A DNA stretch of 64,000 nt from Pelobacter propionicus DSM 2379 (GTDB lineage: Bacteria; Desulfobacterota; Desulfuromonadia; Geobacterales; Pseudopelobacteraceae), in NCBI RefSeq assembly GCF_000015045.1, contig NC_008609.1, positions 930,001-994,000 on the forward strand, written 5' to 3'. The notes beneath the pieces were generated by a model. The model saw only the letters and a program-made list of their open reading frames with translations. It had not been told where the DNA came from and did no database searches. Made by a program: the position numbers and the translations under genes. This document shows, piece after piece, positions 29,941-48,539 of this stretch; the stretch's first letter is position 1, and every line of letters begins with the position of its first letter.

Positions 29941-30693
29941 ATGCTCCAGCGCCTGTGTCTCTACCTCTTCAACCTGTACTTCTACACCCTTTTCCTCCTG
30001 CTCTCGGCGATCGTGATTCCGCTGTTGACCCTGTATGTCGTCTGCCAGGCGCCGTTCTCTACGCGCCGCAGGACCATGAAGCGCTTCCGGGCGGGCATCC
30101 GCCGGTATGGCCGGGTGATCACGTCCCTGCCATACCCCCTGATCAGGCTCCACTACCACTGCCCGGAGAACGGCCAGCCGGAAGAGGCGTGCATCTTCGT
30201 CTGCAACCACCGCTCGGCCTCGGACGCGTTCCTGATGGCCGTGCTGCCCCATGAACTGGTGCAGATCGTCAATGTCTGGCCGTTCCGGATACCGGTGCTG
30301 GGCATCTACGCCAGGTGGGCCGGTTATCTGAACATCCGCATGATGCCACCGGAAGAGTTCATGCGGCGGGGCACGGCGTTGCTGAGAGACGGCGTGTCGC
30401 TGGTGTTCTTCCCCGAGGGGACCCGCTCCACCGGGCGTGACATGGGCAGCTTCCACGGTTCGGCCTTCAGGCTGGCCCTGGCCTCGGGGGCGCCGCTGGT
30501 GCCGCTGTGCATCTCGGGGAGCGAAACCGCCCCACCCAAGGGGTCGGCCCTTCTGCATCCCGGAACGGTCAGGATTCGTCAGATGGCGGCCATCACCCGC
30601 GACCAGTACCGGGGTATGACCCCCTTTGCCTTCAAGAACCGGGTCTGGAAAATCATGGGGCGCGAACTGGCGCTCATGGAGAACAGGGCATGA
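29941..30693 (+). CDS. PlsC-like acyltransferase
   Basis: The 250-aa membrane-associated protein has an N-terminal hydrophobic helix (LYLFNLYFYTLFLLLSAIVI). The HX4D acyltransferase site is in CNHRSASDAF and the second PlsC block in FFPEGTRSTGRDMGSF. Such enzymes move acyl groups from ACP or CoA onto glycerol phosphates or related alcohols. In aryl polyene clusters comparable enzymes attach the polyene to a lipid head group. The start ATG is chosen from context; no strong RBS is seen. The next gene starts within its stop codon. Confidence 0.88.
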   Translation: MLQRLCLYLFNLYFYTLFLLLSAIVIPLLTLYVVCQAPFSTRRRTMKRFRAGIRRYGRVITSLPYPLIRLHYHCPENGQPEEACIFVCNHRSASDAFLMAVLPHELVQIVNVWPFRIPVLGIYARWAGYLNIRMMPPEEFMRRGTALLRDGVSLVFFPEGTRSTGRDMGSFHGSAFRLALASGAPLVPLCISGSETAPPKGSALLHPGTVRIRQMAAITRDQYRGMTPFAFKNRVWKIMGRELALMENRA

Positions 30694-33490: not shown

Positions 33491-34152
33491 GGGAATCCGC
33501 GGCCATGAGAAGCGTGATGCTGATGCTTGCCTGCCTGCTGCTGGCGATCCCCGTCTCCGGTTCGGGGACGGCGCAGCCTGCGGATATGGCGCTCTTCCTG
33601 CGCGACCTGGGCAAGAAGGCGTCCAGCTTCAGGACCCTCAAGACCGACTTCACCCAGGAAAAGAAGATGGCCATGTTCCGGGAGAAGCTGGTCCTCAAGG
33701 GGCGCATCTATCTGCAGAAGCCCAACCGGGTCGCCTGGCACGTGGATTCTCCCCTGCGCTATTCGGTGCTGATCACGGACAGGCTGATCCGCCAGTGGGA
33801 TGAGGAGACCAACCGGGTCCAGGAAGTCTCCCTGGCCAAAAATCCGGTCTTCCAGAACGTGCTCAGCCAGCTGACGGTCTGGTTCTCGGGGGAGTACGGC
33901 TCGCTCTTGGAGGCCAACGACGTGCGTGTGGTCAGCCGCCAGCCGCTGGCGATCGAGTTCATCCCCCGGCCCACCAACATCTCCCGCACGGTGATCAAGG
34001 CCATCACCATCACCTTCCGCGACGACCAGAAGTACCTGCAGCAGATCCGCATCCAGGAACTGAGCGGAGACCTGACCACCCTGCGCTTCCACAACACCAT
34101 CATGAACGCGCCGCTGGACAGCCGCAGCTTCGAGGTCAAGGGGCGTGTTTGA
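33487..34152 (+). CDS. LolA-like periplasmic lipid carrier
   Basis: The 221-aa protein has a signal peptide (SVMLMLACLLLAIPVSG) and a LolA-type beta-sandwich pattern: LKTDFTQEKKMAMF, KGRIYLQKPNRVAW and the later FHNTIMNAPLD. LolA proteins bind acyl groups in a hydrophobic cavity and ferry them to the outer membrane. Such a gene is a regular part of aryl polyene clusters. It overlaps both neighbours (4 nt and 8 nt) and precedes the MMPL exporter gene, so the three-gene set (carrier, exporter, lipoprotein) should move the lipid product outward. Confidence 0.85.
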   Translation: MRESAAMRSVMLMLACLLLAIPVSGSGTAQPADMALFLRDLGKKASSFRTLKTDFTQEKKMAMFREKLVLKGRIYLQKPNRVAWHVDSPLRYSVLITDRLIRQWDEETNRVQEVSLAKNPVFQNVLSQLTVWFSGEYGSLLEANDVRVVSRQPLAIEFIPRPTNISRTVIKAITITFRDDQKYLQQIRIQELSGDLTTLRFHNTIMNAPLDSRSFEVKGRV

Positions 34153-36523
34153 TTCCATCTTCTCCTGGCTGTACGGCCGCGTCCTGCACCACAGGAGAGT
34201 GGTCATCCTGCTGGTGCTGCTGCTCACCCTGGCCGCCGGAGCGGCGCTCTTTGTTGCCCGCTACGAGGGGAACATCGATCTGATGCTGCCTCCGGACCCC
34301 GAGATCGCCCGCAGCATGGACGTTCTCAGGGGATCCAGCTTCTCGGACAAGATGGTCGTCTCCCTTGCCCTGACCGATCCTTCCAAGACGAATAAGGAGC
34401 TCTTTCAGGCCGTGGACCAGCTGGCCTCGTCCCTGAAGCCGCCGCTGTTCATGAAAGTTGTGTCCGGCTTTTCACTGGCCACTGCCATGGATGAATTCTC
34501 CATCCTGCGCTATGCGCCCCAGGTGCTGGGGGAAGCTGATCTTGCGGTCATCGACGGTCAGATCAGGGAGGATGTGGTGTCCCGCAAGCTGCGGGACATC
34601 TATCTGCAGTCCTTCAGGCCGGAGAGCATCTTCACCTCGTCCCTCTCCCGCGGCGACCCCCTGGGGATCAAGCTGCTGCTGCTGGAAAAGATGCGGGCCC
34701 TGCCCGCCTCCATGGGGTACGACGTTTCCATCGAGGACGGGCACTTCATCAGCCGTGACGGCCGTCACTCCATGCTGATCATCCAGACCTCGGTCCCCAT
34801 GATGGACAGCCCGGGAAGCAAGCGGCTGGTGGCGGCCCTCCAGGAGCGGATCAGGGAACTGCCCCCCTATGTCACAGCCGACATCATCAGCGGCCATCTC
34901 CACACGGTCAGCAACGAACGGGTGATCAAGCACGACATCGCCGTCGTCTCCATCATCGCCTCGGTAACCTTCCTGCTGCTCTTCCTGCTGCTCTTCCGCG
35001 ACCCGCGGGTGCTGTTCGTGCTTATCATCCCGCTCATCGCCGTTGTCTGGGCGATCCCTTTGGCAACGGCCGTGGAGGGGCGGCTCTCGTTCATCGTGAT
35101 CGGTTTCGGCACGGCCATAGCCGGTATTTCCGATTACGGCCTTGTGGTGTACATCGCCATGAAACGGGGCGTCGCCGTCGGCCAGATTGTCAAACTCGCC
35201 AGGCTGGTCACCGTGGATGCGGCCACCACCATGTTCAGCTTTCTGGTCCTGTATATTTCCGTGATCCGCGGCTACCATCAGCTGGCGCTCTTCTCCGGAC
35301 TCTGCGTGGTGATCTGCCTGCTCCTGTCGCTGTTCCTCCTGCCGCCGCTCCTCTCCTGGAAGCGCTATCCCCTGGTTACGGACGCCACCATCGGTGACGG
35401 ACTGGATCGGTTCCTCAAGCCGTGCCGGGCGAATGTGGTGGCCTGGGCCGTGCTGACCGGTGTGGCGCTCGTGCTCTCCTTTTCGGTGACCTTCGACAGC
35501 GACGTGAAGAAGCTGGATGGCTCCGAACCGGGGATCCTGGCGGCTGAACAGCGCTTCCATGATGTGTGGGGGGGCAAGGCCAACCAGGCCCTGTTCGTGG
35601 TCAGCGCCGCCAGCCTGGAACAGGCCATGGAGATCAACGACCGGGTCTACGGGGAGGTGGCCGGAACCCGGCTCAAGGGGGAGTTCACCAGCCTGGCACA
35701 GTTCTGGCCTTCCGCGAAAGTGCGCCAGGAGAACGTCCGGCGCTGGGAGGAATTCTGGTCCCAGGGGCGGGAGCAGAAGCTTCAAGAGCTGATCCGCCGG
35801 ACGTCTGTATCCCAGGGCTTTTCCGAGAACGCCTTTGAACCCTTCTTCCAGGGACTGCATGCCTCACCCGGGGGGGAGGCGGTGACGGGCGGGGTGATCG
35901 GACAGCTGCAGGATCGATTTGTGTTGAGCAAAAACGGAGAATACCGTATCGTATCCTACTTTCCCGACCAGCGGGATTACATCGATGCGCTGAAACCGAT
36001 CACGCAACGATACCCTGGCACGTTTGTCGTATCGGGGAGAGCGCTGTCAGAGTCCATATCCACCATTACCGGTCGTGAGATCAGGATCCTGGCGCCGCTG
36101 GCCATCCTGCTCAACGTCCTCTTGACCTGGCTGCTCTTCAGGGAGTGGAGATACACCCTGATCGCCCTGGTGCCGCTGGTTACCGGCATTGTCTGGCTGA
36201 CCGGCATCATGGCGCTCCTGCACATTCCGCTGAATGTCATCAACATCGTGGCCGCCATCGTCTCCACCGGCGTGGTCGTGGACTACGGAAACGGCATGGC
36301 CTATGAGCATCGCCACAACCTGAACAGCGGAGCGCACCTGGCCGTGACCATGTCGGCGGCAACCAACGTCATCGGCTGCGGGGTGCTGCTGTTCGCCAGA
36401 CACCCGGCGCTGTTCTCCACCGGCGTTGCCATGGCGATCAGCATGGTCAGCGGCTATCTCACCGCGCTGCTGGTGGTTCCCTCACTCTGCGCCATGGCGC
36501 GGGAGCGGGGAGGGGAGCCGTGA
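34145..36523 (+). CDS. MMPL/RND-family lipid exporter
   Basis: The 792-aa inner-membrane protein has the two-fold RND layout: a helix near residue 20, a periplasmic loop, five or six helices (about 260-430), a second loop, and a final helix bundle (about 640-790). Polar residues in the fourth helix (GFGTAIAGISDYGLV and IVSTGVVVDYGNGMAY) may relay protons. MMPL proteins export complex lipids in actinobacteria and occur in aryl polyene and hopanoid loci. It overlaps the LolA-like gene by 8 nt and the lipoprotein gene by 4 nt. Confidence 0.88.
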   Translation: MFDSIFSWLYGRVLHHRRVVILLVLLLTLAAGAALFVARYEGNIDLMLPPDPEIARSMDVLRGSSFSDKMVVSLALTDPSKTNKELFQAVDQLASSLKPPLFMKVVSGFSLATAMDEFSILRYAPQVLGEADLAVIDGQIREDVVSRKLRDIYLQSFRPESIFTSSLSRGDPLGIKLLLLEKMRALPASMGYDVSIEDGHFISRDGRHSMLIIQTSVPMMDSPGSKRLVAALQERIRELPPYVTADIISGHLHTVSNERVIKHDIAVVSIIASVTFLLLFLLLFRDPRVLFVLIIPLIAVVWAIPLATAVEGRLSFIVIGFGTAIAGISDYGLVVYIAMKRGVAVGQIVKLARLVTVDAATTMFSFLVLYISVIRGYHQLALFSGLCVVICLLLSLFLLPPLLSWKRYPLVTDATIGDGLDRFLKPCRANVVAWAVLTGVALVLSFSVTFDSDVKKLDGSEPGILAAEQRFHDVWGGKANQALFVVSAASLEQAMEINDRVYGEVAGTRLKGEFTSLAQFWPSAKVRQENVRRWEEFWSQGREQKLQELIRRTSVSQGFSENAFEPFFQGLHASPGGEAVTGGVIGQLQDRFVLSKNGEYRIVSYFPDQRDYIDALKPITQRYPGTFVVSGRALSESISTITGREIRILAPLAILLNVLLTWLLFREWRYTLIALVPLVTGIVWLTGIMALLHIPLNVINIVAAIVSTGVVVDYGNGMAYEHRHNLNSGAHLAVTMSAATNVIGCGVLLFARHPALFSTGVAMAISMVSGYLTALLVVPSLCAMARERGGEP

Positions 36524-37188
36524 TCAGGCTGATCTGTCTGCTGCTCGCCCTGCTGCTCATGGCCGGCTGCGGGGCTCAGGTTCCCTTTCGGGAGGTGCCG
36601 GCCCTCCCCCTGGGAGCGGCTGAGCCGGCCAGGGTGCTGGATGATTTCAAGGCCCGCCTGCCGGAGCGTTTTCAGCTGCTCAACTCGGTGGTGCTGGAGT
36701 ATGCCGGCCTGTCCTTCATGGCTATCGGCTATCTGGACATGGACAGGAGCGACAACAGCTTTCAGGTGAGCTGCCTGAACCCCCTGGGGGTACGGCTGTT
36801 CGAGCTGTCCGGCGATCATGGCGCTATCACGGCCCGTTCGGTGCTGCCGCCACTCATGGGGTATGGCGACCTGCCCACCGCCGTGGGAACGGATATCGGC
36901 AGGATCTTCCTGGATCTGCTGCCGGCACCCCATGCCCAGGTCTGGAGGACAGGGAACAGTATCAGCTTCTGGCAGCCGGCCGGGGCGGGGCGCATGCAGT
37001 ACCTCTTCGCCGGACCTGATCGGGACCTGCTGGAGAAGAACTACTATGAGGACAGCCAGATCCAGTGGGGCGTTTCCTACTACGAATACGTTGAACTGGC
37101 TGGAAAACGCTATCCCCGGGGGATCGTGCTGACCAACTACCAGCGCAATTACCGGCTGATAGTGCGACACAAGGAGTTGTATTCGTGA
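36520..37188 (+). CDS. Outer-membrane-type lipoprotein, DUF3261-like
   Basis: The 222-aa protein has a lipoprotein signal (MIRLICLLLALLLMAGC, lipidation at C17) and a mature part resembling DUF3261 proteins found after LolA and MMPL genes in aryl polyene clusters. Family assignment is by position and general pattern, so moderate. It may receive the lipid from the LolA-like carrier, as LolB does for lipoproteins. It overlaps both neighbours by 4 nt. Confidence 0.72.
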   Translation: MIRLICLLLALLLMAGCGAQVPFREVPALPLGAAEPARVLDDFKARLPERFQLLNSVVLEYAGLSFMAIGYLDMDRSDNSFQVSCLNPLGVRLFELSGDHGAITARSVLPPLMGYGDLPTAVGTDIGRIFLDLLPAPHAQVWRTGNSISFWQPAGAGRMQYLFAGPDRDLLEKNYYEDSQIQWGVSYYEYVELAGKRYPRGIVLTNYQRNYRLIVRHKELYS

Positions 37189-37583
37189 GCAGGATCAAGG
37201 CGGAAATCCAGCAGTGCATGAGCGGACCGGAAAGGGACGGCGCGACCATTGGCGCCCGTTTCCGCTTTCCAGCGGGATTCATCGGCTTCCAGGGGCATTT
37301 CCCCGGCAACAGCGTCCTGGCCGGTGCCTGCCAGATCCAGTGCGCCCTCACCGCCATGGAGAAGGGGCTGGGCAAGGCGGTCGCCCTGCGCGAGATCGTG
37401 CTGGCCAAGTTCGTGGCGCCGGTGCTGCCGGAGCAGGAGATAACCTGCCTGGTGAGCGATTGCGCCGACACCCCGGGGGAGTGGCTCTGCCGGGCCCGCA
37501 TCACCAGGGGGGATGAACGGGTCGCCGAGCTCAGGCTGCGGGTCTGCCTGGTCGACGAAGCGGAAGGGCGGCGCGACCCATGA
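37185..37583 (+). CDS. 3-hydroxyacyl-ACP dehydratase-like hotdog protein
   Basis: The 132-aa protein is a single hotdog domain with the FabZ-type helix motif GHFPGNSVLAGACQIQ (active-site His). The acidic residue normally found in the next helix is replaced by Gln in this alignment (AGACQIQCAL), so activity may be altered or the protein may be a partner of the dehydratase domain encoded upstream. It starts at GTG, preceded by AAGGAG and overlapping the lipoprotein stop. It is the second dehydratase-like unit of the cluster. Confidence 0.8.
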   Translation: MSRIKAEIQQCMSGPERDGATIGARFRFPAGFIGFQGHFPGNSVLAGACQIQCALTAMEKGLGKAVALREIVLAKFVAPVLPEQEITCLVSDCADTPGEWLCRARITRGDERVAELRLRVCLVDEAEGRRDP

Positions 37584-38065
37584 ACATGCGCAGGAAGAGA
37601 ACCTATTTCGAACGCACGGCCGGCTCTCCGCAGCCGATCAGGGTGGAGCTGGAGCGTCGCGTCCGCTTCAACGAGGCCGATCCCATGGGGATCATGTGGC
37701 ACGGCAGGTACCCGCTGCTGTTCGAGGAGGCCTCCGAGGAACTGGGCAGGCGCTGCGGCCTCTCCTACGAGGAGTACCGCCAAGCCGGTCTCTACGCCCC
37801 GATCCTGTCGCTGCACATCGATTACTTCCAGCCGCTGCGCCTGGCCGAGCAGTTCAGGGTGGCCGCGTCCCTGGTCTGGCACGAGGGGGCGCGGCTGAAC
37901 ACCGAATTCCAGGTGCTGAAACAGGACGGGAGCCTGGCCACCAGCGGCTACACCATCCAGCTCTTTACCGACCAGCTGAGCGGTCAGCCCTGCATGGTCA
38001 CGCCGGCCATGCTGGAGCGCTGCCGGAGCAGGTGGAAGGCGGGGGAGTTTCATCCATGCCCATGA
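37580..38065 (+). CDS. 4HBT-family acyl thioesterase
   Basis: The 161-aa hotdog protein carries the YbgC/4-hydroxybenzoyl-CoA thioesterase motif RFNEADPMGIMWHGRYP with its catalytic Asp near residue 37, then LHIDYFQPL. Thioesterases of this type occur in aryl polyene clusters and may release chains from ACP or proof-read stalled intermediates. ATG 37580 overlaps the previous stop by 4 nt, and the next gene starts 10 nt before its end. Confidence 0.88.
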   Translation: MNMRRKRTYFERTAGSPQPIRVELERRVRFNEADPMGIMWHGRYPLLFEEASEELGRRCGLSYEEYRQAGLYAPILSLHIDYFQPLRLAEQFRVAASLVWHEGARLNTEFQVLKQDGSLATSGYTIQLFTDQLSGQPCMVTPAMLERCRSRWKAGEFHPCP

Positions 38066-39198
38066 AAGCCGTTGTTGTCGACTGCGATTGCCTGACCCCC
38101 TACGGCATGGGGAGCGATGCCTGCTGGCAGGGACTCCTGTCCGGGAGGTCGGCCATCACCAGGATTTCCCGCTTCGCCACCGGTGCCTTCATGTCCGACT
38201 ACGCCGCCACGGTGGAAGGGCTTATCTACCACGGCGGGACATCGTTGGTCATGCAGATGATCGATCGCCTGTTTCGCTGCGCTGCCCCGGACATCCCGGC
38301 CGACAGCCGGCTCCTGCTGGCAACCACCAAGGGGGAGATCGACTTCCTGGAGATGAGCGTGCTCTCCGATAGCGGCGATGCCGGCGAGAGCTCCCTGGAG
38401 CGGCTGCTGGAGAAGGTCGCCCGGCGCAGCGGCGCCGGGGGGGGGAGTCTGCTGCTGTCGGCCGCCTGCACCTCGTCCTCGGCTGCAGCGGCGCGGGGCG
38501 CGGCCCTGATCAGGGATGGCCAGGCAGACTGCGTGCTGGTGGTGGCCTGCGACGCGGTCACGGAATTCGTCTTTTCCGGCTTCTCCTCGCTGATGGCGCT
38601 GGACAGGGAGCCCGCCCGTCCCTTCGACAAGAACCGCGCCGGACTGAGCGTGGGGGAGGCGGCCGCCTACATGCTGATCATGAGCGAAGAACGGGCCCAA
38701 CGGGAGAAGCGCGCCATCCTGGCCGAACTGGCCGGCTGGGGGTTGAGCGACGATGCCAACCACATGACCGGGCCGAGCCGGGAAAGCGAGGGGATGATCC
38801 GCGCCATAGAGGTTGCGCTCCGCTCCGCCGGCCTGGGAGAGGAACGCATCGGTTTCATCTCCGCCCACGGCACCGGCACCCCCTACAACGACGCCATGGA
38901 GATGCGCGCCTTCCGCGCCCTGTTCGGCGCACAGAAGCGGCCGGTCTACTCAATCAAGGGGGGGATCGGCCACACCATGGGGGCAGCCGGTCTGGTGGAG
39001 CTGATCATGGCTGCCAGGGCATTGAGCGAGCAGCAGGTTCCCCCCACGCTGAACCTGGAGCAGGCGAGTGACGATGCCAGGGGGTGGGTCTCCGCCCAGC
39101 CGCAAGGACTGGAGGCGGCCGGCTATGCCCTGGTGACCAATGCCGGCTTCAGCGGCGTGAACACCGCCCTGGTGCTGGGGAACGGGGGCCTGTCATGA
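38056..39198 (+). CDS. Beta-ketoacyl synthase, complete
   Basis: The 380-aa condensing enzyme has C138 (LSAACTSSSAAAARG), H271 (ISAHGTGTPYND) and H306 (GGIGHTMGAAG), a full triad. It is slightly short for FabF. It overlaps the thioesterase gene by 10 nt and the next, KS-like, gene by 4 nt. The pair looks like a KS with a reduced chain-length-factor partner, as in type II polyketide and aryl polyene systems. ATG 38056 (MPMKAV) is used; a second ATG two codons later is possible. Confidence 0.9.
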   Translation: MPMKAVVVDCDCLTPYGMGSDACWQGLLSGRSAITRISRFATGAFMSDYAATVEGLIYHGGTSLVMQMIDRLFRCAAPDIPADSRLLLATTKGEIDFLEMSVLSDSGDAGESSLERLLEKVARRSGAGGGSLLLSAACTSSSAAAARGAALIRDGQADCVLVVACDAVTEFVFSGFSSLMALDREPARPFDKNRAGLSVGEAAAYMLIMSEERAQREKRAILAELAGWGLSDDANHMTGPSRESEGMIRAIEVALRSAGLGEERIGFISAHGTGTPYNDAMEMRAFRALFGAQKRPVYSIKGGIGHTMGAAGLVELIMAARALSEQQVPPTLNLEQASDDARGWVSAQPQGLEAAGYALVTNAGFSGVNTALVLGNGGLS

Positions 39199-39869
39199 GA
39201 ATCCAGGTGACCGGCGCCGGATGGGTGACAGAGTCGGCATACGGCAGCGTTGCGAGCGGGGAGGAGCGGCGTTTCGCCGAGGGGGAGGGAGTAGTTTCCC
39301 TGTCGCGCTCGGGGCTCTTCTCCCACCCCTTCAGGAACTTCGCCCGGCTGGACCTGTTGTCCAAGATGACCGTCTGTGCCGTGGCCTTGGCCCTGGGGGA
39401 CGCGGCCATCGCCTACTCTGCGCTGGAAAAGCAGGCCATCGGCATCCTGGGCAGCAGCAGCCAGGGGGCCCTGGCCTCCGATCTGGCCTATTTCAGCGAC
39501 TACGTTCGCAACGGCCGCACTCTGTCGCGGGCCAACCTGTTCATCTATACCCTCCCCTCCAGCCCCCTGGGCGAAGCTGCCATACACTTCGGCCTCGTGG
39601 GGCCGCTCCTGTACGCAGGGGGAGGGCAGGGGGCGGCCGGCACGATCCTGGACATGGCCGCCGCCATGCTGGCGGCTGGCGAGGCTGATCATATGCTGGT
39701 GGGCCGGGCCGATCCCGGGGAGGCCCTGTACCTTGTGCTTGAACGGGATCGGGGAGGTCGTGGAATCTGCTCCCTGGCCGAGGCGCGGGCAATCGTCGAT
39801 TCAGTACCTGATGTGGCTGGCATGGTGCAGGAACTATTACTCGTGAAGGATACAGAGGGCGAACCGTGA
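39195..39869 (+). CDS. Truncated ketosynthase-like protein without catalytic Cys
   Basis: The 224-aa protein aligns only to the N-terminal half of ketosynthases: LLSKMTVCAVALALGDAAI, IGILGSSSQGALASD, then GPLLYAGGGQGAAGTILD where the active Cys would be replaced by Gly. The C-terminal half with both His is missing, but no frameshift or stop explains this. It is coupled by ATGA overlaps to the KS before it and to the radical SAM gene after it. It may act as a small chain-length-factor-like partner of that KS. Confidence 0.8.
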   Translation: MRIQVTGAGWVTESAYGSVASGEERRFAEGEGVVSLSRSGLFSHPFRNFARLDLLSKMTVCAVALALGDAAIAYSALEKQAIGILGSSSQGALASDLAYFSDYVRNGRTLSRANLFIYTLPSSPLGEAAIHFGLVGPLLYAGGGQGAAGTILDMAAAMLAAGEADHMLVGRADPGEALYLVLERDRGGRGICSLAEARAIVDSVPDVAGMVQELLLVKDTEGEP

Positions 39870-41134
39870 AGATAAAATTGATCTATCCCAAATGGCCCAA
39901 GCTGGACCGGCAGACCGACTTCAACCTGCCGCCCCATGGCCCGGTCTGTTTCGCGGCCACGGTTCCGGCGGACGTGGACTTGAGCTTTACCGACGAGCAT
40001 GTGGAGCCGATCGATTTCGACGAGCATGCTGACCTGGTGGCCATCTCCTGCATGCTGACCTGCCAGATGCCCCGCGGCTGGGAGATCGCCGACATCTACC
40101 GTGCCAAGGGGATCCCGGTGATCTTCGGTGGTATCGGCACCATGCTGCATGCCCAGGAGACCATGACCCACGCCGATTCCGTCTTTCTGGGCGAGGCCGA
40201 GGGACGTTTCCATCAGGTGCTGACCGACCTGAACAACGGGGGGATGCAGAAGGTCTACGATTACCAGAACGACCTCCCCGACATCGGCCTGGTCGGTCCG
40301 GCGCGGCGGGAGATCCTCAACCGTGAACTGTACAACTACCGGGGCATGCAGATGGTGGACCTGGTGCACGCCTCCCGCGGTTGCCGCTTCACCTGCTTCC
40401 CCTGCTGCACGCCGTTTTTGGGGGGGACCAGATTCCGGCCGCGCTCCCTGGACGACGTCATCGCCGAGGTGGCTTCAATAGAGAACAACCGCCTGTTCTT
40501 CGTGGATAACTCCATGTCCCAGGACGACCAGTGGGAAAAGGATCTGTTCAAGGCCCTGATTCCGCTCAAGAAGAAGTGGGTTTGCCACCCGATCAAGGAC
40601 AACGACGAGATCCTGGACCTGGCCGCCGAAGCCGGCTGCTGGTACGTCTACCAGGCCATCTTCGACACCTCCGACCATATCCGCAACCGGGTCAAGCGCC
40701 TGCAGGAGCGGGGCATCGGCGTGGAGGGGACCATCATCCTGGGCACCGACGAGCAGGACGAGGAGTACATCAAGCGGCTGGTGGATTTCCTGCTGGAGAT
40801 CAACCTGGATCTGGCGGAGTTCACCATCCTGACCCCCTTCCCGCATACGCCGATCCGCGAGACCCTGGAAAAGGAGGGGCGCATCCTCTCCAACGACTGG
40901 CTGCGCTACACCGGCGGAGAAGTGGTCTTCCAGCCGGCGCGCATGACCCCGTCGAAACTTCAGGATCTCTATTATTACGCCTGGGACCGCTTCTACAGCG
41001 ACAGCAGCCAGAATCTGAAGATGGCCAAGCTGTTTCTCAAGGTGATGGAAAAGGAGAAGGCAGATGGAACATATCGCCATACCAGCCCCCGGCGCAGGAA
41101 GTGGGAGCGGAACGTGGAACGGGAGATTGTATAG
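39866..41134 (+). CDS. B12-binding-type radical SAM enzyme (first of two)
   Basis: The 422-aa protein has an N-terminal region like the cobalamin-binding fold (HADLVAISCMLTCQMPRGW, then GIPVIFGGIGTMLHAQE, VFLGEAE) and a radical SAM domain with C173, C177 and C180 (RGCRFTCFPC). The B12-ligating DxHxxG motif is not evident, as in many members of this class. Such enzymes (BchE-like group) carry out methylation, cyclisation and oxidative ring closure. The extra Cys after the motif (CFPCC) is notable. It overlaps both neighbours. Its substrate is probably an acyl or polyene chain from this cluster. Confidence 0.87.
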   Translation: MKIKLIYPKWPKLDRQTDFNLPPHGPVCFAATVPADVDLSFTDEHVEPIDFDEHADLVAISCMLTCQMPRGWEIADIYRAKGIPVIFGGIGTMLHAQETMTHADSVFLGEAEGRFHQVLTDLNNGGMQKVYDYQNDLPDIGLVGPARREILNRELYNYRGMQMVDLVHASRGCRFTCFPCCTPFLGGTRFRPRSLDDVIAEVASIENNRLFFVDNSMSQDDQWEKDLFKALIPLKKKWVCHPIKDNDEILDLAAEAGCWYVYQAIFDTSDHIRNRVKRLQERGIGVEGTIILGTDEQDEEYIKRLVDFLLEINLDLAEFTILTPFPHTPIRETLEKEGRILSNDWLRYTGGEVVFQPARMTPSKLQDLYYYAWDRFYSDSSQNLKMAKLFLKVMEKEKADGTYRHTSPRRRKWERNVEREIV

Positions 41135-42502
41135 GTGAAGGTGTTGATGATTTCGGCAAATGTGACGCTCTACCCCTATCCCGTCTACCCCCTGGGCATG
41201 AGCATGGTGGCGGCGGCCCTCAGCGGGGCGGGACACGAGGTCCAGCAGCTGGATTACCTGCAACAGGAGCGCTCCCTGGAGTCCGTGCTTGAGGAAGTGA
41301 AACGTTTTCAGCCCGGCATGATCGGCATCTCGGTGCGCAACATCGACAACGTGAACCTGCTGAACACCGAGTACTACATCCATAACGTCAAAAACATGGT
41401 GGATGCCATCAGGACGGTGAGCGATGCCCGCATCGTGCTGGGCGGAGCCGGCTTCTCCCTGATCCCTGAGCAGATCCTGGAGGAAACCGGCGCCGATTTC
41501 GGCGTGATCGGCGAGGGCGAGCAGCTAATGGTTGCGTTCGCCGACGGCGCGGAGCGGGGAATCTACCCCCAGAAACGGTTGCTGGGGCCGGCGTCGCCCC
41601 TGTCCGGCGACGATATTGGCTCGGCGCTCTACGACGAGGGGCTGACCCGCTTCTACCTGCAGAGCGGCAACATCGCCTCGATCCAGACCAAGCGGGGCTG
41701 CAGCCACCACTGCGTCTACTGCACCTATCCGCTGCTGGAGGGTTCGTGCCTGCGCAGCCGCGACCCGGTGAAGGTGGTGGACGACATCGAACTTTTGCGC
41801 GACAAGCACGGCACCGGCTACATCTTCTTCGTGGACTCGGTGTTCAATGACGATTCGGGTATCTACCTGGGGGTGGTGGACGAGATGCTGCACCGCAAGG
41901 TCAACATCCCCTGGACCGGCTACATCAAGCCGGGGAACCTGAACGACGAGATCGTGGAGCGCATGAAGAGCACCGGATTCGCCTCCGCCGAAGTCGGCTC
42001 CGACGCGGCCTGCGACAGCACCCTGGCTCGCATGGGCAAGGACTTCACCTTCGCCGACATCCGGGAGTGCAACGATCTGCTGACGCGGCACGGCATCGCC
42101 ACCTGTCACTTCTTCATGTTCGGCGGCCCGGGGGAGACCGAGGAGACGGTTAAGGAGGGGATCGCCAACATCTTGAGCCTGAAGAAGTGCGTCATCTTCA
42201 TCTTCATGGGTATCCGCCTGCTGCCCAACACTCCGCTGGCCAAAATCGCTGTCCGGGAAGGGGTGATCGACTCGGAGAGCGACATGCTGCAGCCGGTGTA
42301 CTACATCGCGCCCAACCTGGACAGGGACTGGCTGGAACGGACCCTGACCGAGGCCTTCGCCGGGGTTCGCCACTGCCTGTTCCCCCCCGACTGCATGGAC
42401 AATTGTCTGAACGTGTTGCACAAGCTGGGCTATAGCGGTCCCATGTGGGATCTGCTCACCAAGGAAAAACCGCGCAGAAGGGGCGCCCATGCCGCGGCCT
42501 AG
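41135..42502 (+). CDS. B12-binding-type radical SAM enzyme (second of two)
   Basis: The 455-aa protein starts at GTG directly after the stop of the first radical SAM gene. N-terminal segments PYPVYPLGMSMVAAAL, MIGISVRNIDN and IVLGGAGFSLIPEQIL are typical of the cobalamin-binding domain in B12-radical SAM proteins. The cluster site is C189, C193 and C196 (RGCSHHCVYC). FFMFGGPGETEETV near residue 325 is typical of the SAM domain's second half. A Cys-bearing tail (FPPDCMDNC) may hold another ligand. Tandem B12-type enzymes in a FAS-like cluster resemble ladderane loci more than standard aryl polyene loci. Confidence 0.87.
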   Translation: MKVLMISANVTLYPYPVYPLGMSMVAAALSGAGHEVQQLDYLQQERSLESVLEEVKRFQPGMIGISVRNIDNVNLLNTEYYIHNVKNMVDAIRTVSDARIVLGGAGFSLIPEQILEETGADFGVIGEGEQLMVAFADGAERGIYPQKRLLGPASPLSGDDIGSALYDEGLTRFYLQSGNIASIQTKRGCSHHCVYCTYPLLEGSCLRSRDPVKVVDDIELLRDKHGTGYIFFVDSVFNDDSGIYLGVVDEMLHRKVNIPWTGYIKPGNLNDEIVERMKSTGFASAEVGSDAACDSTLARMGKDFTFADIRECNDLLTRHGIATCHFFMFGGPGETEETVKEGIANILSLKKCVIFIFMGIRLLPNTPLAKIAVREGVIDSESDMLQPVYYIAPNLDRDWLERTLTEAFAGVRHCLFPPDCMDNCLNVLHKLGYSGPMWDLLTKEKPRRRGAHAAA

Positions 42503-43688
42503 CCCGCTTCCGGCAGAGAAGCTCTGGTGCGCGGTGCCGGTGTACAACAACCGGGAGACCCTGCGGCGGGTGGTGGAGGGGTGCCGCGCCATCCTGGACA
42601 ACGTGGTGGTGGTGGATGACGGCAGCACGGACGCGGATGTGGGCCTGCTCCTCTCCGGCCTGGACGTGACGCTCCTGCGCCATGGCCATAACCAGGGCAA
42701 GGGACGCGCCATCCTGACCGCCTCGCGCTTCGTGGAGCAGCAGGGGGGCGAGTACATGGTCACCGTCGACGCCGATGGGCAGCACCTGCCCATGGACATC
42801 CCGCGTTTCCTGCCGCTGCTGGAGCCGGGGGGAACGGCCCTGGTCATCGGCTGCCGGGATTTTTCCACCGACAACGTCCCCTTCTCCAGTCGCTTTGGCC
42901 GCTCCTTCGCCAATTTCTGGCTGCTGGTGGAAACCGGCCAGGTGGTGGGGGACTGCCAGAGCGGATTCCGCGCCTATCCGGTTCACTATCTCAACCAACT
43001 GGAGTTCAAGGGGGCGCACTACGACTTCGAGGCCGAGGTGCTGGCCAGGGCGGCCTGGGCCGGCCTGGAACTGGTCTGCGTGGATATCGACGTGATCTAC
43101 CCCCGGCCGGAGGAGCGGGTCTCCAGCTTCAGGCCGTTTCTGGACAACCTGCGGCTGAGCGGGATGCATTCCCTGCTGGTTGGCCGGCGCATGCTCCCCC
43201 TCGGGCACAGACGGCTGGTGCCGCGCAGCCCCAGCCCATTCCCCTCCCTCTGGCGCCATCCGGCCCGGGTGCTGGGGATGCTGCTGAAGGAGAGCGCCAC
43301 TCCCCAGGGGCTGGCACTGTCGGCGGCGGTGGGCATGTTCATCGCCGTGCTGCCGATCCTGTTCATGCATTCGATCGTCATCTTCTACGTCTCCCTGCGC
43401 CTGAACCTGAACAAGATCGTGACGCTCAATGTCCAGCATCTGGCCATGCCCCCCCTGATGCCGGCGCTCTGCATCGAGACCGGCTACTACCTGCGCCACG
43501 GCCGCTGGCTGACCGACCTCTCCTTTGCCACGGTGTTCCGGCAGTTCTCATCGCGCCTCCTGGAGTGGTTCATCGGTTCCCTGATCGTGGCCCCCGTGGC
43601 TGCCCTGCTCTGCGGCGGGCTCATGTACCTGGTGGCCGCCACGGTCCGCAAGGTGAGGAGAGCCCATGGGGCGAAACAGGGCTGTTGA
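42489..43688 (+). CDS. GT2 glycosyltransferase fused to DUF2062 membrane domain
   Basis: The 399-aa protein has a GT-A fold (VPVYNNRETL, VVVDDGSTD, VTVDADGQHLP with the DxD metal site) at residues 10-235 and a C-terminal DUF2062 membrane domain (SAAVGMFIAVLPILFMHS and later helices, about 270-395). GT2-DUF2062 proteins appear in aryl polyene clusters, where they may glycosylate the lipid anchor. It overlaps the radical SAM gene by 14 nt and the LpxL-like gene by 23 nt. Confidence 0.87.
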   Translation: MPRPSPLPAEKLWCAVPVYNNRETLRRVVEGCRAILDNVVVVDDGSTDADVGLLLSGLDVTLLRHGHNQGKGRAILTASRFVEQQGGEYMVTVDADGQHLPMDIPRFLPLLEPGGTALVIGCRDFSTDNVPFSSRFGRSFANFWLLVETGQVVGDCQSGFRAYPVHYLNQLEFKGAHYDFEAEVLARAAWAGLELVCVDIDVIYPRPEERVSSFRPFLDNLRLSGMHSLLVGRRMLPLGHRRLVPRSPSPFPSLWRHPARVLGMLLKESATPQGLALSAAVGMFIAVLPILFMHSIVIFYVSLRLNLNKIVTLNVQHLAMPPLMPALCIETGYYLRHGRWLTDLSFATVFRQFSSRLLEWFIGSLIVAPVAALLCGGLMYLVAATVRKVRRAHGAKQGC

Positions 43689-44568
43689 GCGCAGGCGGGG
43701 AAACCGGCTCGGTTTCTGGTTCTTCCGCACGGCGGTGAGGCTGTTCGGCCTGGGGGGCGCCTACGGCTTCCTCTACTTCGTCGGCCTGTACTATCTGGTC
43801 GTGGACCGCGGCCTGGTGAAGGCCACCCTGGCCTATGTGCGCCGGCGCTTCCCCGGCCATGGCCCGTTGCGCAGGCTGCTGGACGTCTACCTGCTCTTCG
43901 TCAGCCAGGGGAAGAACCTGATCGACCGTTTCGCGCTGGCGGCCGGCTACTCGGACATCTCCCTGGATATCAGGGGCTTCGACGAGCTGAAGCAACTCTA
44001 CTCCGCAGGCGGCAAGGGCTTCATCCTGCTGACCGCCCATGTGGGCAACTGGCAGGCGGCCATGACGGCGCTCCATGGCATCGGCAGGACCGTGCACCTG
44101 ATGATGCGGCCCGAGGACAACCAGGCGGTCAAACAGACTCTGAACATCGACGGTGGGGGGGCGAAGGTCAAGATTATCTACACCGACGACTCCCTGGCAG
44201 GGGCGATCCAGGCCGTCAAGGTGCTGGAACAGGGGGATCTGGTCTCCATCATGGGGGACAGGGTCTACGGCTTCAGTTCGGCCGAAGCGACCTTTCTGGG
44301 TGACCGGGTCTGCTTTCCCCATGGCGCCTTCACCCTTGCCGCTGCCGTGCAGTGCCCGGTGGTGGTGCTCCTCTCCGCCAAGGTGGGGACAAAGAAATAT
44401 GTCGTCGACGTCAGCCACGTCATCCCGCCGCCGGCCGGCGGCCGGAGAAGGAAGGACGCCGCCATGGGGGAGGCGTTGCAGCAATTCGCGGATGTGCTGG
44501 AGCAGTTCGTTCGCGAGCACCCCTACCAGTGGTTTGTGTTTCGCGATATCTGGACGTCCAATGAGTGA
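43666..44568 (+). CDS. LpxL/HtrB-like acyltransferase
   Basis: The 300-aa protein belongs to the lysophospholipid acyltransferase group of LpxL. The N-terminal hydrophobic region (FLYFVGLYYLVV) anchors it at the inner membrane. The HX4-type site reads TAHVGNWQAA, with Gln where LpxL has Glu (NWE). QGDLVSIMGDRV is the second conserved block. It may acylate the glycosylated product. It shares 23 nt with the GT2 gene and is the last member of the tightly overlapping block 29941-44568. Confidence 0.85.
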   Translation: MGRNRAVERRRGNRLGFWFFRTAVRLFGLGGAYGFLYFVGLYYLVVDRGLVKATLAYVRRRFPGHGPLRRLLDVYLLFVSQGKNLIDRFALAAGYSDISLDIRGFDELKQLYSAGGKGFILLTAHVGNWQAAMTALHGIGRTVHLMMRPEDNQAVKQTLNIDGGGAKVKIIYTDDSLAGAIQAVKVLEQGDLVSIMGDRVYGFSSAEATFLGDRVCFPHGAFTLAAAVQCPVVVLLSAKVGTKKYVVDVSHVIPPPAGGRRRKDAAMGEALQQFADVLEQFVREHPYQWFVFRDIWTSNE

Positions 44569-44594: not shown

Positions 44595-44879
44595 ATGGAA
44601 GACAAGGAACGAGAGCTTCAGAAAATTCGCAAGGATCTCAAGGAGATGATCGCCCGGGACCTGGCGTTGGAGGACATTACCCCCGAGGAGATCGGCGACG
44701 ACGAGATCCTGTTCGGCGACGGCCTTGGCCTGGATTCCCTGGACGCGGTGGAGATCGTGGTCCTCTTGCAGCGCAATTTCGGTGTCGAGATCAAGAACAT
44801 GGACCAGGGGAGGGAGATCTTCTACTCCATCGATACCATCGCCAACTACGTCTACGAGAATCGGGGCAAGCAGCCCTGA
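44595..44879 (+). CDS. Acyl carrier protein (second)
   Basis: The 94-aa acidic ACP has the phosphopantetheine Ser at S48 in GLGLDSLDAVEIVVLLQ. A longer, charged N-terminal helix (MEDKERELQKIRKDLKEM) sets it apart from the first ACP. GAGGAG precedes ATG 44595. It is 26 nt after the LpxL-like gene and just before the deacetylase gene. Confidence 0.9.
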   Translation: MEDKERELQKIRKDLKEMIARDLALEDITPEEIGDDEILFGDGLGLDSLDAVEIVVLLQRNFGVEIKNMDQGREIFYSIDTIANYVYENRGKQP

Positions 44880-44911: not shown

Positions 44912-45891
44912 ATGCTCGTTCTGTGCGCCGCCCTGTTGGCCGCCTGCGCCGGCAGCCGCCCGCCTGTCCCGGCAACGGGCCCCATGCCGCTGGTGACCTT
45001 CGTGCTGGACGACGGCAACGACACCGACTTTCTGCTGGGCAGGAGGATCTTCGCCGAACAGGGGGCCGTTGCCTGCAGCGCCGTGACCACTGACCTGATC
45101 AACACCCCCTTTCACATGACTCCTGAGCAGATCAGGGGGCTTGAGGAGGCCGGATGGGAGATCATGAGCCACACCGTCTCCCACCCCCACCTGCCGTTTC
45201 TGTCCCCGGCCGAGCTGGAGCATGAGCTGTCGCGCTCCAAGGCGGTACTGGAAGGATTGGGGGTGAGGGTCACCAACATCGTCTACCCTTTCAACAGCAA
45301 CAACAGTGAGGTGAGGAGTGCGGCGGCCAGGCACTACCGTTCCGGCAGGGGGGGGGGAGCGAGTTCAACGTCGGGAACATCGACCGCTCTTTACTCACGT
45401 CATTCTCCCTCAACCATGACCTGCCCCGGATGAAGAGCCACATCGACCGTGCCCATGCCGAGCGCTCCTGGCTGATCTTCTACTACCACGAGATCGACAC
45501 CAAGCAGAAGATAACGGAGAAACGGGGCAGTTTCCAGCAGGGGGAGACGGTGCGCCTGAGCCCCTCGGGGGCCGTGGCCCGCTACACAACCACCCACTGG
45601 TTCCCGATCTACGGCTATCACCTGTATCTGGTCCCCCTTTCCGGCACCCCCCAGGCGGGCGACCTGATCACCGGGACCGTCAGCGGCGCCACCGCCCGCA
45701 TCGATTACACCATCTACGACGATATCGCCCAGCTGGGGGATATGCTGCGCTATATCCGGGACAGCTATCCGGACATGCGTATCGTCACCATCGACCAGGG
45801 GCTTGACCTGCTGGGGATTCCGAACTTTGTGCTTGGGCAGCAGCCCGGACGCACGGGGAAAACGACATGCACGGAACCGACATGCTCATAA
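44912..45891 (+). pseudogene. NodB-type polysaccharide deacetylase, frameshifted at poly-G
   Basis: The first frame (from ATG 44912) gives a lipoprotein signal (LCAALLAACAG) and NodB motifs VTFVLDDGND and MSHTVSHPH. It runs off-frame after a run of ten G at 45348-45357. The second frame continues without loss from SEFNVGNIDRS through IFYYHEID to the stop at 45891. One added G or two fewer would join them into about 325 aa. The length of the G run makes slipped-strand switching or a sequencing error both possible. A functional product would be a periplasmic, lipid-anchored carbohydrate deacetylase. Confidence 0.8.
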
Positions 45892-47045
45892 CGGGATTGG
45901 GCGTGGTCTCGTCCGCCGGCAACGGCTGCAGCGAGACCCTTGATTCCTTTGTACGGCTGGAACGCAACGCCGGACCGGTCACCCTCTTTCCCACGGCCAT
46001 GGAGTATCCGGTCTTCGAGGTCAGGGGGATGCCGCAACCGTATTGCCTCCAGGGGATGCGCACCCTCGGCCTGACCCTGATGGCCCTGGACCAGGCCCTG
46101 GAGGATGCCGGCCTGGACGACCTGTCCGGCCGACGCGTGGGGGTCTGTCTGGGGACCACGGTGGCCAGCCAGCTGAACGACCTGGGGTTCTACGCCAGCT
46201 ACCGCAGCCAGGGCTCGGCGCCTCTGACAGCGGTCGACCGCTTCCTCAAGGGGAACCTGGCCGAATGCGTAGCCCGCCGGGTCGGCGCACGCGGCCCGGT
46301 CCTGACCGTGGTCAACGCCTGCTCCTCGGGGAGCGATGCCATCGGCGTGGCTCTCTCCTGGTTGAAGGGGGGGCTGTGCGACCTGGTCATCGCCGGCGGA
46401 GCCGACGAGCTGAACCATGTGCCCTACTGCGGCTTCAACTCCCTGGGCATCCTCAATCCGGGGCTCTGCGCCCCCTTTGACCGTGACCGCCGGGGGCTGA
46501 ACCTGGGGGAAGGGGCCGGGATCATGGTCCTGGAGCAGGAACGGCACGCCCGCATGCGGGGGAAGAGCTGCCAGCTCTTCCTGGCCGGATACGGCTCCAT
46601 GGCCGATGCCTATCACCTGACCGCCCCGCGCCCCGATGGCGCCGGCCTGAGGGCGGCGCTGCACATGGCCCTGGCCGAGGCTGGCATCGAACCCCGGCAG
46701 GTGGCCTTCGTCAATGCCCATGGCACCGGCACCCAGGACAATGACCTGGTGGAGGGGACGGTTATCAAGGATCTTTTCGGAGCCGGGCTGAAGCTGCTCT
46801 CAACCAAGGGGTACACCGGCCACACCCTGGGGGCAGCCGGCGGCCTGGAGGCGGTGTTCAGCGCCTTGGCGCTGCGGGAAGGGTGGATACCGGCCAGCGC
46901 CGGATTCGTGAACCGGGACGAGGCCATTCCCCTGGTGCCGGTGCGGGAAAAGAGCGCCATCAGCGGATGCTATGCGGTCTCCACTTCCCTGGCCTTCGGG
47001 GGGAACAACGCGGCCATCGTCCTGGGGCGGGGAGGGAAACCATGA
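45867..47045 (+). CDS. Beta-ketoacyl synthase, complete (third)
   Basis: The 392-aa condensing enzyme has C152 (VVNACSSGSDAIG), H285 (VNAHGTGTQDND) and H319 (KGYTGHTLGAAGG). It starts at ATG 45867, 24 nt inside the deacetylase gene, after GGGGA. Its stop overlaps the start of a KS-like partner by 4 nt. The pair resembles the KS/CLF heterodimers of type II polyketide synthases, so chain elongation with defined length is expected. Confidence 0.92.
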   Translation: MHGTDMLITGLGVVSSAGNGCSETLDSFVRLERNAGPVTLFPTAMEYPVFEVRGMPQPYCLQGMRTLGLTLMALDQALEDAGLDDLSGRRVGVCLGTTVASQLNDLGFYASYRSQGSAPLTAVDRFLKGNLAECVARRVGARGPVLTVVNACSSGSDAIGVALSWLKGGLCDLVIAGGADELNHVPYCGFNSLGILNPGLCAPFDRDRRGLNLGEGAGIMVLEQERHARMRGKSCQLFLAGYGSMADAYHLTAPRPDGAGLRAALHMALAEAGIEPRQVAFVNAHGTGTQDNDLVEGTVIKDLFGAGLKLLSTKGYTGHTLGAAGGLEAVFSALALREGWIPASAGFVNRDEAIPLVPVREKSAISGCYAVSTSLAFGGNNAAIVLGRGGKP

Positions 47046-48115
47046 ACATCCTCGGTATCGGCTCTGTTTTCAGCCGGGGAGCGGGAGTCCCGGCCCTGGA
47101 GGATGCCCTGCTCTCCGGCTGGCAGGCGCCGTCACGGGTGGAGGACCCCCGGGCGGAGAGCGGGTTTCGCCCGGCCTATCTGGTGGATCTGGCCGCGGTC
47201 CCGGACCGCACGCTGCTGAAGAAGCTCCGCAGGGCCGACAAACTGAGCAAAATGTGCGTGCTGGCCGCCGCCGGAGCCTTGGCTGACAGCGCCATTCCTG
47301 ACCTGGCTGACAAGCGCATCGGCATCATCCTGGCCACCGCCTTCGGCGCCCAGGTGACCACCTTTGATTTCCTGGACGGCATCCTGGATTTCGGCGATGC
47401 CCATGCCTCGCCCACCACCTTCTCCAACTCGGTGCACAACGCGGCCGCCTCCTATGTCTCGTCGTCCCTGAACATCCAGGGGCCGACCCTGACGGTGACC
47501 CAGTTCCGCTTCTCGTTCCAGTCCGCGCTCCAACTGGCCCGCACCTGGCTGGACCAGGGACGCTGCGACTACCTGCTGGTGGGGGGGGCGGACCAGTACG
47601 GCGACGTGCTGGGCTATGTGGCCGACCGGAAGCTGCATACGGCCGGGGATGGCAGGATCACCCCCTTTGTCTTCAACCCGGCCCGTCAGGTGCCGGGGGA
47701 GGGGGCGCTCTTCCTGCTTTTGGGCAGGGAGACGACCGAAAACGCCTACTGCGCCATGGACGGCGTGTACGTCAGCGACGACCCGGCCCGGGATCGGGCG
47801 GTGGACATGAACATCATCGAGGCCGACGGCATGCTGGCGGACGAATCGGGGTACCTCTCCTCCCTTGATCCCCGCATCCCCACCACGGCCTACTCTCCGC
47901 TGTTCGGCAGCATGCTGGTGGGAGGCGCCTTCAATCTGGCCGCCGGCGCCCTGATGCTGAAGCGGCAGACCAGCTTCGCGCCGCCGGTGACGGACAACCC
48001 CCGTGGCCTGAAGCTGGTGGCTGGGACCGCCGCGGCTTCCATCGCTTCGATCCGTTCACTCGGCCTGAACTGTTACGGCGAGGCCTCAGCCGTCTATCTG
48101 ACGCGGCTGCCCTAA
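47042..48115 (+). CDS. Chain-length-factor-like ketosynthase homologue
   Basis: The 357-aa protein keeps the thiolase-like fold (DKLSKMCVLAAAGALADSA, SPTTFSNSVHNAAASYVSS) but all three catalytic residues are replaced. The Cys position is R156 in LTVTQFRFSFQSA, the NAHGTGT block reads NIIEADGML, and the second His position is Ser in FGSMLVGGA. A Gln just before the Cys position (Q154) recalls the CLF Gln but is displaced. It probably forms a heterodimer with the preceding KS. ATG 47042 overlaps the KS stop. Confidence 0.87.
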   Translation: MNILGIGSVFSRGAGVPALEDALLSGWQAPSRVEDPRAESGFRPAYLVDLAAVPDRTLLKKLRRADKLSKMCVLAAAGALADSAIPDLADKRIGIILATAFGAQVTTFDFLDGILDFGDAHASPTTFSNSVHNAAASYVSSSLNIQGPTLTVTQFRFSFQSALQLARTWLDQGRCDYLLVGGADQYGDVLGYVADRKLHTAGDGRITPFVFNPARQVPGEGALFLLLGRETTENAYCAMDGVYVSDDPARDRAVDMNIIEADGMLADESGYLSSLDPRIPTTAYSPLFGSMLVGGAFNLAAGALMLKRQTSFAPPVTDNPRGLKLVAGTAAASIASIRSLGLNCYGEASAVYLTRLP

Positions 48116-48296
48116 CCGGGGGCGGCTGCGGAAGCCAGCTCTTCTCCAGCGGTCCCGTGGCTTTGCCCGATAACCACCATACCCCGTTAGAGCCTTGCGC
48201 ACGAGGCTGGGGACGCTTTTTACCCACACCCTGCCCGTCAGGGGGGAGACGAATTTACGAGCCCTGCATGGGGGCGACCACCAGAGGTGCTTCTCT

Positions 48297-48539
48297 ATGA
48301 CCGTTGAAGAAATTGAAAAAAAACTGATCCAGGGTATCGCATCCATTACCGGCTGCGATCTGGCCGCCATCTCTCCCCATTCCCCCTTCCACGAGCTGGG
48401 GCTGGACTCCTTCGGTTTCGTCGAGACCCTGGTCTTCATCGAAGAAACCTTCAAGTTGAAGCTGATCTCCACGGAACTGACCAGGCAGGATTTCGAGAGC
48501 ATCCACCTGCTGGCGCAGCTGATCGCCAGAAAACAGTGA
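48297..48539 (+). CDS. Acyl carrier protein (third)
   Basis: The 80-aa carrier protein has S38 in LGLDSFGFVETLVFI, an unusual DSF in place of DSL, as in ACPs of some polyketide and aryl polyene systems. It lies 181 nt after the CLF-like gene, so it may have its own promoter. AGAGGTG precedes ATG 48297. The condensation-like gene follows after 13 nt. Confidence 0.88.
   Translation: MTVEEIEKKLIQGIASITGCDLAAISPHSPFHELGLDSFGFVETLVFIEETFKLKLISTELTRQDFESIHLLAQLIARKQ

Follow-up and report, generated by a model that had tools for sequence, protein, structure and literature searches.

The 64,000-nucleotide stretch of the Pelobacter propionicus DSM 2379 genome analysed here (NC_008609.1, positions 930,001 to 994,000; the window) carries two adjoining genes for B12-type radical S-adenosylmethionine (SAM) enzymes, labelled RS1 (upstream) and RS2 (downstream). 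We consider it probable that the two tailor the product of an aryl-polyene-like type II polyketide pathway that needs no oxygen, and that they act as a co-inherited pair on a chain bound to acyl carrier protein (ACP). Type II polyketide enzymes would build a polyene acyl chain on the ACP without oxygen. RS2 would most likely carry out cobalamin-mediated methyl transfer or another C-C bond formation, and RS1 most likely a radical step other than methylation, namely dehydration, desaturation or ring closure. The modified chain would then be anchored to a lipid or glycan and exported to the outer membrane. The substrate is likely to be an ACP-bound acyl (polyene) chain, much as an earlier sequence-only reading had proposed, because the pair sits among ketosynthase (KS)/KS-like pairs and ACPs both here and in relatives with the same gene order.

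Both open reading frames (ORFs) are intact, tightly packed and on the plus strand (Table 1). The first 4 bases of RS1 overlap the end of the preceding KS-like gene, the TAG stop of RS1 is followed by the GTG start of RS2 with zero gap, and the start of the GT2 glycosyltransferase gene overlaps the end of RS2 by 14 bases. The sequence-only reading was right that the genes form a real pair, and that it lies directly behind a KS/KS-like pair; the KS has its catalytic Cys and the KS-like partner lacks it. All 48 RS1-group rows and all 30 RS2 rows of the alignment keep the CxxxCxxC motif. RS2 scores above the Pfam cut-offs for the B12-binding domain PF02310 (79.5 vs 32.1) and Radical_SAM (69.5 vs 29.5). 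RS1 is slightly below both (31.8 vs 32.1 and 24.6 vs 29.5), while its predicted model gives a full-length fold match.

The predicted models, which the same reading had called for, are confident for RS1 (predicted local distance difference test, pLDDT, 90.5; predicted TM score, pTM, 0.88) and for RS2 (88.4 and 0.87), and both show the two-domain B12 radical SAM-type fold. They were compared with solved structures only. The RS1 model matches AprD4, MgmA, OxsB and TsrM over the full length with the same two-domain architecture. Its closest solved fold is AprD4 (PDB entry 6fd2), with a Z score of 32.2 and a root-mean-square deviation of 2.5 over 371 residues, followed by MgmA with 25.9. In a PDB profile search AprD4 is again the best match (3.9e-9), and TsrM is the sole other one (4.6e-4). 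The likeness of RS1 to AprD4, a radical SAM diol dehydratase, is one of fold. However, the identity is 18%, the substrate of AprD4 is a sugar, and the AprD4 family model gives RS1 20.5 bits against a cut-off of 500. RS2 is closest in both fold and sequence to TsrM (PDB entries 6wte and 6wtf; TM score 0.84, 3.2e-50), a B12 radical SAM tryptophan C2-methyltransferase. Here the identity is 22–23%, TsrM belongs to another pathway, and the score with the Trp C-methyltransferase family is 138.7 bits against a cut-off of 500.

Family placement separates the two proteins, which had been taken for one kind of enzyme. RS2 is a member of the NCBIfam family TIGR04072, rSAM_ladder_B12 (636.3 bits, cut-off 360), whereas RS1 reaches 48.1 bits with this model. 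RS1 is above no NCBIfam cut-off, the best score being 54 of 251 bits for TIGR04013. With TIGR04072, RS2 of the second cluster form described below (type B) scores 681 bits and the anammox relative 418 bits. The next-best families of RS2 are mostly methyltransferases, namely BzaD, an enzyme of methyl transfer (216 bits), and the Trp C-methyltransferase family. The earlier term BchE-like holds for the two-domain architecture but fails for the family: the BchE model TIGR02026 (cut-off 481.35) gives 36.0 bits for RS1 and 80.6 bits for RS2, and the HpnJ model TIGR03471 (cut-off 577.6) gives 53.5 and 60.4 bits.

An 88-row tree with HpnJ and ladderane-cluster proteins was built by quick search with Shimodaira–Hasegawa-type approximate likelihood ratio (SH-aLRT) support; it has no BchE rows, BchE being judged from the profile scores. 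RS2 falls in a clade with anammox TIGR04072 proteins, RS1 forms a clade of its own, and HpnJ and RS3, a third tandem gene of type B clusters, are separate branches, each at 100% support. The RS1 clade lies inside a 37-row clade that also contains the anammox RS1-like protein. Orthology of this protein with RS1 was rejected, since it stands in another branch of the 37-row clade together with genes of Geobacter relatives. The organism's own HpnJ is encoded elsewhere in the genome (782 bits). BchE or HpnJ membership of RS1 and RS2 is rejected on account of the low scores, the separate HpnJ branch and the true HpnJ elsewhere. The pair does not group with hopanoid or tetrapyrrole enzymes, the grouping that the sequence-only reading had set against its own proposal; a role in those pathways has the common domain architecture in its favor and nothing more, is already contradicted by these data and is hardly conceivable.

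The extra Cys residues, put forward as unusual features, differ in conservation. In RS1, C181 is mostly conserved (Cys in 33 of 36 orthologues, with 2 Ala and 1 Ser otherwise). In RS2, C420 and C424 of the FPPDCMDNC stretch are Cys in 1 of 30 rows, the window sequence alone, and these residues are rejected as a cluster ligand.

The operon spans about 25.8–49.9 kb of the window on the plus strand. Its content matches the ape gene list of Escherichia coli (PMC8253772), so that the earlier label, a fatty acid synthesis (FAS) operon, is too plain: judged by its predicted genes, it is an aryl-polyene-like type II polyketide synthase set and not an ordinary FAS operon. Shared with aryl polyene (E. 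coli ape, PMC8253772) and flexirubin clusters are an acyl-ACP/CoA ligase, a KS with a KS-like partner of chain length factor (CLF) type, a further KS, two dehydratases, a ketoreductase, ACPs, a thioesterase, acyl- and glycosyltransferases, and LolA-, RND- and DUF3261-like export proteins. All three KSs keep Cys/His/His in the alignment, and two KS-like proteins lack the Cys. The ApeP-like, DUF3261, LolA2 and FlxY matches stay below their family cut-offs, indicating likeness to aryl-polyene systems rather than membership. In contrast to those systems, the window has no aromatic starter enzyme among those searched for (ammonia-lyase and chorismate lyase), and no ApeB-type methyltransferase was noticed. 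It adds the two B12-type radical SAM enzymes, a fusion of a radical SAM/SPASM enzyme with a dehydratase, and a phytoene-desaturase-like protein.

Full-length RS1 orthologues with 62–100% identity occur in 54 of the 244 genomes of the class, with fragments in 5 more, and the next tier reaches at most 38%. Twenty regions from the class show two forms of the cluster. Five have the order of the window with RS1-RS2 (type A), and 15 have a tandem RS1-RS2-RS3 (type B). Further marks of type B are an aromatic ammonia-lyase, which scores 550 bits with PF00221 in the one region examined, and often also a DarH acyltransferase (477 vs 300). The protein best conserved between the window and type B is RS1 in all 15 regions (63–69%; other proteins at most 63%). 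A scan of named genomes gave at least 520 RS1 relatives among at least 585 stretches. The best 80 of these, the named loci, come mostly from metagenome-assembled genomes and span about 11 NCBI phyla, including Nitrospirota, Omnitrophota, Lentisphaerota, Verrucomicrobiota, Planctomycetota, Acidobacteriota and Myxococcota. As the class regions and the named loci overlap in several genomes, counts for the latter are kept separate. The same gene order recurs across phyla, which puts the RS1-RS2 arrangement far beyond chance. Where named loci extend 3.2 kb or more downstream (67 cases), RS2 is present without RS3 in 47 and with RS3 in 14, and is missing in 6. The RS1 and RS2 distances are correlated (r 0.845 over 66 pairs, a value reached by 0 of 2000 permutations); the mean pairwise distance is 0.31 for RS1 and 0.495 for RS2.

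The two forms differ in their head module, which was counted in those 40 of the 80 named loci whose upstream DNA suffices and in which a LolA or RND gene is visible. The SPASM enzyme occurs with neither lyase nor RS3 in 28, and lyase and RS3 occur without the SPASM enzyme in 7. The remaining 5 have neither lyase nor SPASM enzyme (4 of these with RS3), and lyase and SPASM enzyme are found together in 0 of the 40. A single frame encodes SPASM enzyme and dehydratase in each of 33 loci, all 28 named ones included. Mapped on the RS1 tree, the head module shows one change and RS3 two; the single head-module change indicates one old split rather than a series of independent cases. PF00221 has no match in the P. 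propionicus genome, in the five other type A genomes or in that of Victivallis vadensis, with positive controls matching in 5 of 14. UbiC-type chorismate lyase (PF04345) is absent from all 7 of these genomes, and the E. coli control matches. Coumarate and UbiC-made 4-hydroxybenzoate are therefore unlikely starters, and the starter of the window form is probably not a coumaroyl unit from an ammonia-lyase. The SPASM enzyme, which stands in the place of the lyase, may make or alter the starter.

Several related genes lie outside these clusters. RS1 occurs alone in an acidobacterial locus (L131) that lacks KS, ACP and RS2, beside a gene that looks NuoD-like. P. propionicus itself has a solitary RS3-like B12 radical SAM gene (contig C3:2684216-2685676; L247:14217-15677), 51% identical to type B RS3. 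It lies outside the cluster, near genes that by appearance concern polysaccharides, and might act in trans with RS1-RS2. In one relative (L244, genome G033), positions 6.7–14.8 kb hold another small cluster of lipid type, in which three genes for B12-type radical SAM enzymes accompany an ACP, an LpxL-like gene, a GT2 gene and a deacetylase-like gene.

RS2, the SPASM enzyme and, at a greater distance, RS1 have relatives in anammox ladderane clusters. Three Planctomycetota genomes count as anammox here, since a protein of one (G421) matches PDB entry 8hd2 (459 bits) and the other two share its cluster; 8hd2 was matched to the name AmxMT1 by comparison with PMC9821293. Two of the three clusters were mapped gene by gene, and Kuste locus numbers were matched to their genes through gene order and descriptions rather than accessions. 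The anammox ladderane clusters share with the window a TIGR04072 enzyme (412 to 440 bits), a radical SAM/SPASM enzyme beside an AMP-ligase (43–44% identical to the window's), a phytoene-desaturase-like protein, an RND/MMPL-type exporter, LolA, GT2, acyltransferases, KS and KS-like genes. SDR (short-chain dehydrogenase/reductase) and PlsC matches each occur in one of the two mapped clusters. As in the window, there is no aromatic ammonia-lyase, and PF00221 is found in none of the three genomes. In contrast to the window, the anammox SPASM enzyme is not fused to a dehydratase, and the RS1-like protein, with 32–33% identity, comes from a different branch of the RS1 superfamily. Anammox bacteria also have AmxMT1 and a further gene of TIGR04072 type, both of which are missing from P. 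propionicus: AmxMT1 gave 0 matches there in a search without positive control, and RS2 alone answers at E ≤ 1e-30 (33%) for the second gene. In three loci from genomes of the window's order and family (L216, L222 and L232), genes reach 64–70% identity with the anammox RS1-like protein. None of them lies in a ladderane cluster, and two have an RS3-like neighbor; gene transfer with anammox bacteria is possible.

Similar clusters were reported in K. stuttgartiensis, Desulfotalea psychrophila, Geobacter and Pelobacter by Rattray et al. in 2009 (PMC2649909), a paper in which polyunsaturated fatty acid (PUFA) synthesis was proposed for them. The D. psychrophila cluster is known to us from this paper alone, and the species was not met by name in the genome scan. 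A 2023 metagenome study found 'ladderane' clusters in many phyla, without a product (PMC9902471), and expression of candidate ladderane genes in E. coli was unsuccessful (PMC4790861).

These comparisons bear on what the pair does. Two cobalamin-dependent C-methylases that branch the polyene are possible, if clearly less probable than the split of roles proposed above: methylation is the reaction of most characterised B12 radical SAM enzymes (PMC13142503) and the nearest families of RS2 are methyltransferases, but the nearest fold of RS1 belongs to a dehydratase (AprD4; PMC5461906). We also know of no methyl-branched polyene from hosts of the cluster. Rather unlikely is that RS1 is a cobalamin-free radical dehydratase of AprD4 type acting on a hydroxyacyl-ACP, with B12 used by RS2 alone. 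In Z score AprD4 leads the next fold by 6 units, it heads the profile search, and PF02310 is below cut-off; yet the AprD4 family model barely recognizes RS1, and the conserved Rossmann-type domain at the N-terminus suggests that a cofactor is bound. We give a similarly low chance to ring closure, still a live alternative for either enzyme, in which the pair, or RS2 alone, would form C-C bonds in the polyene to yield a carbocyclic, possibly ladderane-like lipid. Ring-forming cobalamin radical SAM enzymes are listed in PMC13142503, and the RS2 family, the SPASM enzyme with AMP-ligase, and the phytoene-desaturase-like, RND, KS-like and RS1-like genes recur in anammox ladderane clusters. Against it, the genome lacks AmxMT1 and a second TIGR04072-type gene, and no ladderanes were found in D. 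psychrophila despite such clusters (PMC2649909). In a bolder form, rather improbable, the window-type cluster and the anammox ladderane pathway would be sisters: a non-aromatic start would come from the AMP-ligase/SPASM-dehydratase module, RS1 and RS2 would turn the ACP-bound polyene into a carbocyclic lipid, and RS1 would found an unnamed family for polyene-ACP radical chemistry. The proposal of Rattray et al., that such clusters make PUFAs or hydrocarbons and that the radical enzymes serve in pre- or post-processing of the chain, is very unlikely for P. propionicus. Synteny with D. psychrophila, a producer of C31:8 and C31:9 hydrocarbons (PMC2649909), speaks for it. However, a PfaA-type PUFA synthase is encoded separately at C3:3389918-3396721 (1745.7 bits with neighbors, cut-off 1010) and also occurs in 2 of 3 other genomes tested; the cluster is then not needed for PUFA, which is rejected as its task. 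The KS-like partners and Lol/RND export also suit aryl-polyene systems better.

The reading of RS1 and RS2 as tailoring enzymes of a polyene pathway has several points to answer. The cluster has no known product, and several of its genes (ApeP-like, DUF3261, LolA2 and FlxY) score below family cut-offs. RS1, which would use cobalamin, is just under the Pfam B12 cut-off, and its closest predicted fold match, AprD4, is a cobalamin-free enzyme. The mutual exclusion of lyase and SPASM enzyme rests on one change on the RS1 tree, and the RS3 pattern on two, which makes the exclusion weak as independent evidence, and RS1 without RS2 in 6 of 67 named loci means that pairing is not obligatory.

Table 1. 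Predicted genes of the RS1-RS2 operon in the window, with the evidence for each name (scores in bits; 'vs' gives the family cut-off).
Feature	Position	Strand	Evidence
SDR/ketoreductase (ApeQ-like)	25814..26533	+	syntenic, 79-90% identical in 5 type A clusters; named from sequence alone
Phytoene-desaturase-like FAD oxidoreductase	26749..28242	+	PF01593 43.3, above cut-off; best NCBIfam CrtD 88, below cut-off
Ketosynthase A, catalytic Cys/His/His kept	28233..29459	+	PF00109 138; alignment
Acyl carrier protein 1	29490..29756	+	DLGLDSLD, taken to be an ACP motif; 76-89% identical in type A
PlsC-type acyltransferase	29941..30693	+	PF01553 68.5
AMP-forming acyl ligase, FlxY-like	30690..32000	+	NF053551 458.7 vs 520
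Radical SAM/SPASM enzyme fused to ApeP-like dehydratase	31997..33490	+	PF04055, SPASM; ApeP-like 21.3 vs 27
LolA-like carrier	33487..34152	+	PF03548 67; NF053544 (LolA2) 112 vs 125
RND/MMPL-type exporter	34145..36523	+	HpnN 84.9, HAE3 64, both below cut-off
DUF3261/LolB-like protein	36520..37188	+	PF11659 20.3 vs 22.3
ApeI-like dehydratase (named by position)	37185..37583	+	no Pfam match; position conserved
4HBT thioesterase	37580..38065	+	PF13279 58.9
Ketosynthase B, Cys/His/His kept	38056..39198	+	PF02801 108.8
Short KS-like partner without catalytic Cys	39195..39869	+	PF00109 28.7
RS1, radical SAM enzyme with B12-type N-terminal domain	39866-41134	+	GTG start, 422 aa; unnamed family
RS2, B12-binding radical SAM enzyme	41135-42502	+	GTG start, 455 aa; TIGR04072 (ladderane-cluster family)
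GT2 glycosyltransferase + DUF2062	42489..43688	+	PF00535, PF09835
LpxL-type acyltransferase	43666..44568	+	PF03279 59.7
Acyl carrier protein 2	44595..44879	+	74-92% identical in type A
Polysaccharide-deacetylase-like gene, frame broken in window	44912..45891	+	named from sequence alone
Ketosynthase C, Cys/His/His kept	45867..47045	+	PF00109 99
KS-like partner without catalytic Cys	47042..48115	+	PF00109 57.8
Acyl carrier protein 3	48285..48539	+	comparison with type A regions
Conserved protein	48553..49872	+	no Pfam or NCBIfam match

The conserved protein that ends the operon is 43–68% identical in 4 of 5 type A regions and undetected in the fifth, whose region ends before it. In the deacetylase-like gene the frame changes near a run of ten G, and relatives G230 and G190 have an intact single frame; sequencing error, decay and phase variation are all possible. 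Directly downstream of the cluster lies a PanP aspartate decarboxylase gene (50635-52338; TIGR03799, 887 vs 606 bits). Far upstream, an ORF at 12837-14201 gives the impression of an insertion-sequence transposase.

Clusters of this type in Geobacter and Pelobacter have been known since 2009 (PMC2649909). Among the papers searched, none names TIGR04072 and none was seen to describe the RS1-RS2 gene pair. Measured against these papers, four points are new: RS1 proteins as a separate, unnamed and highly conserved family, the existence of two forms of the cluster, the fusion of SPASM enzyme and dehydratase, and the corrected view of the cysteines. RS1 represents a widespread, strongly conserved enzyme family without an NCBIfam name. 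The exchange of lyase for SPASM enzyme points to a new polyene start without an aromatic head group. The type A cluster occurs in many anaerobic phyla, including the culturable V. vadensis. As relatives of key ladderane candidates lie in this tidier cluster, which named and culturable anaerobes also carry, organisms other than anammox bacteria could serve to test the chemistry of these enzymes.

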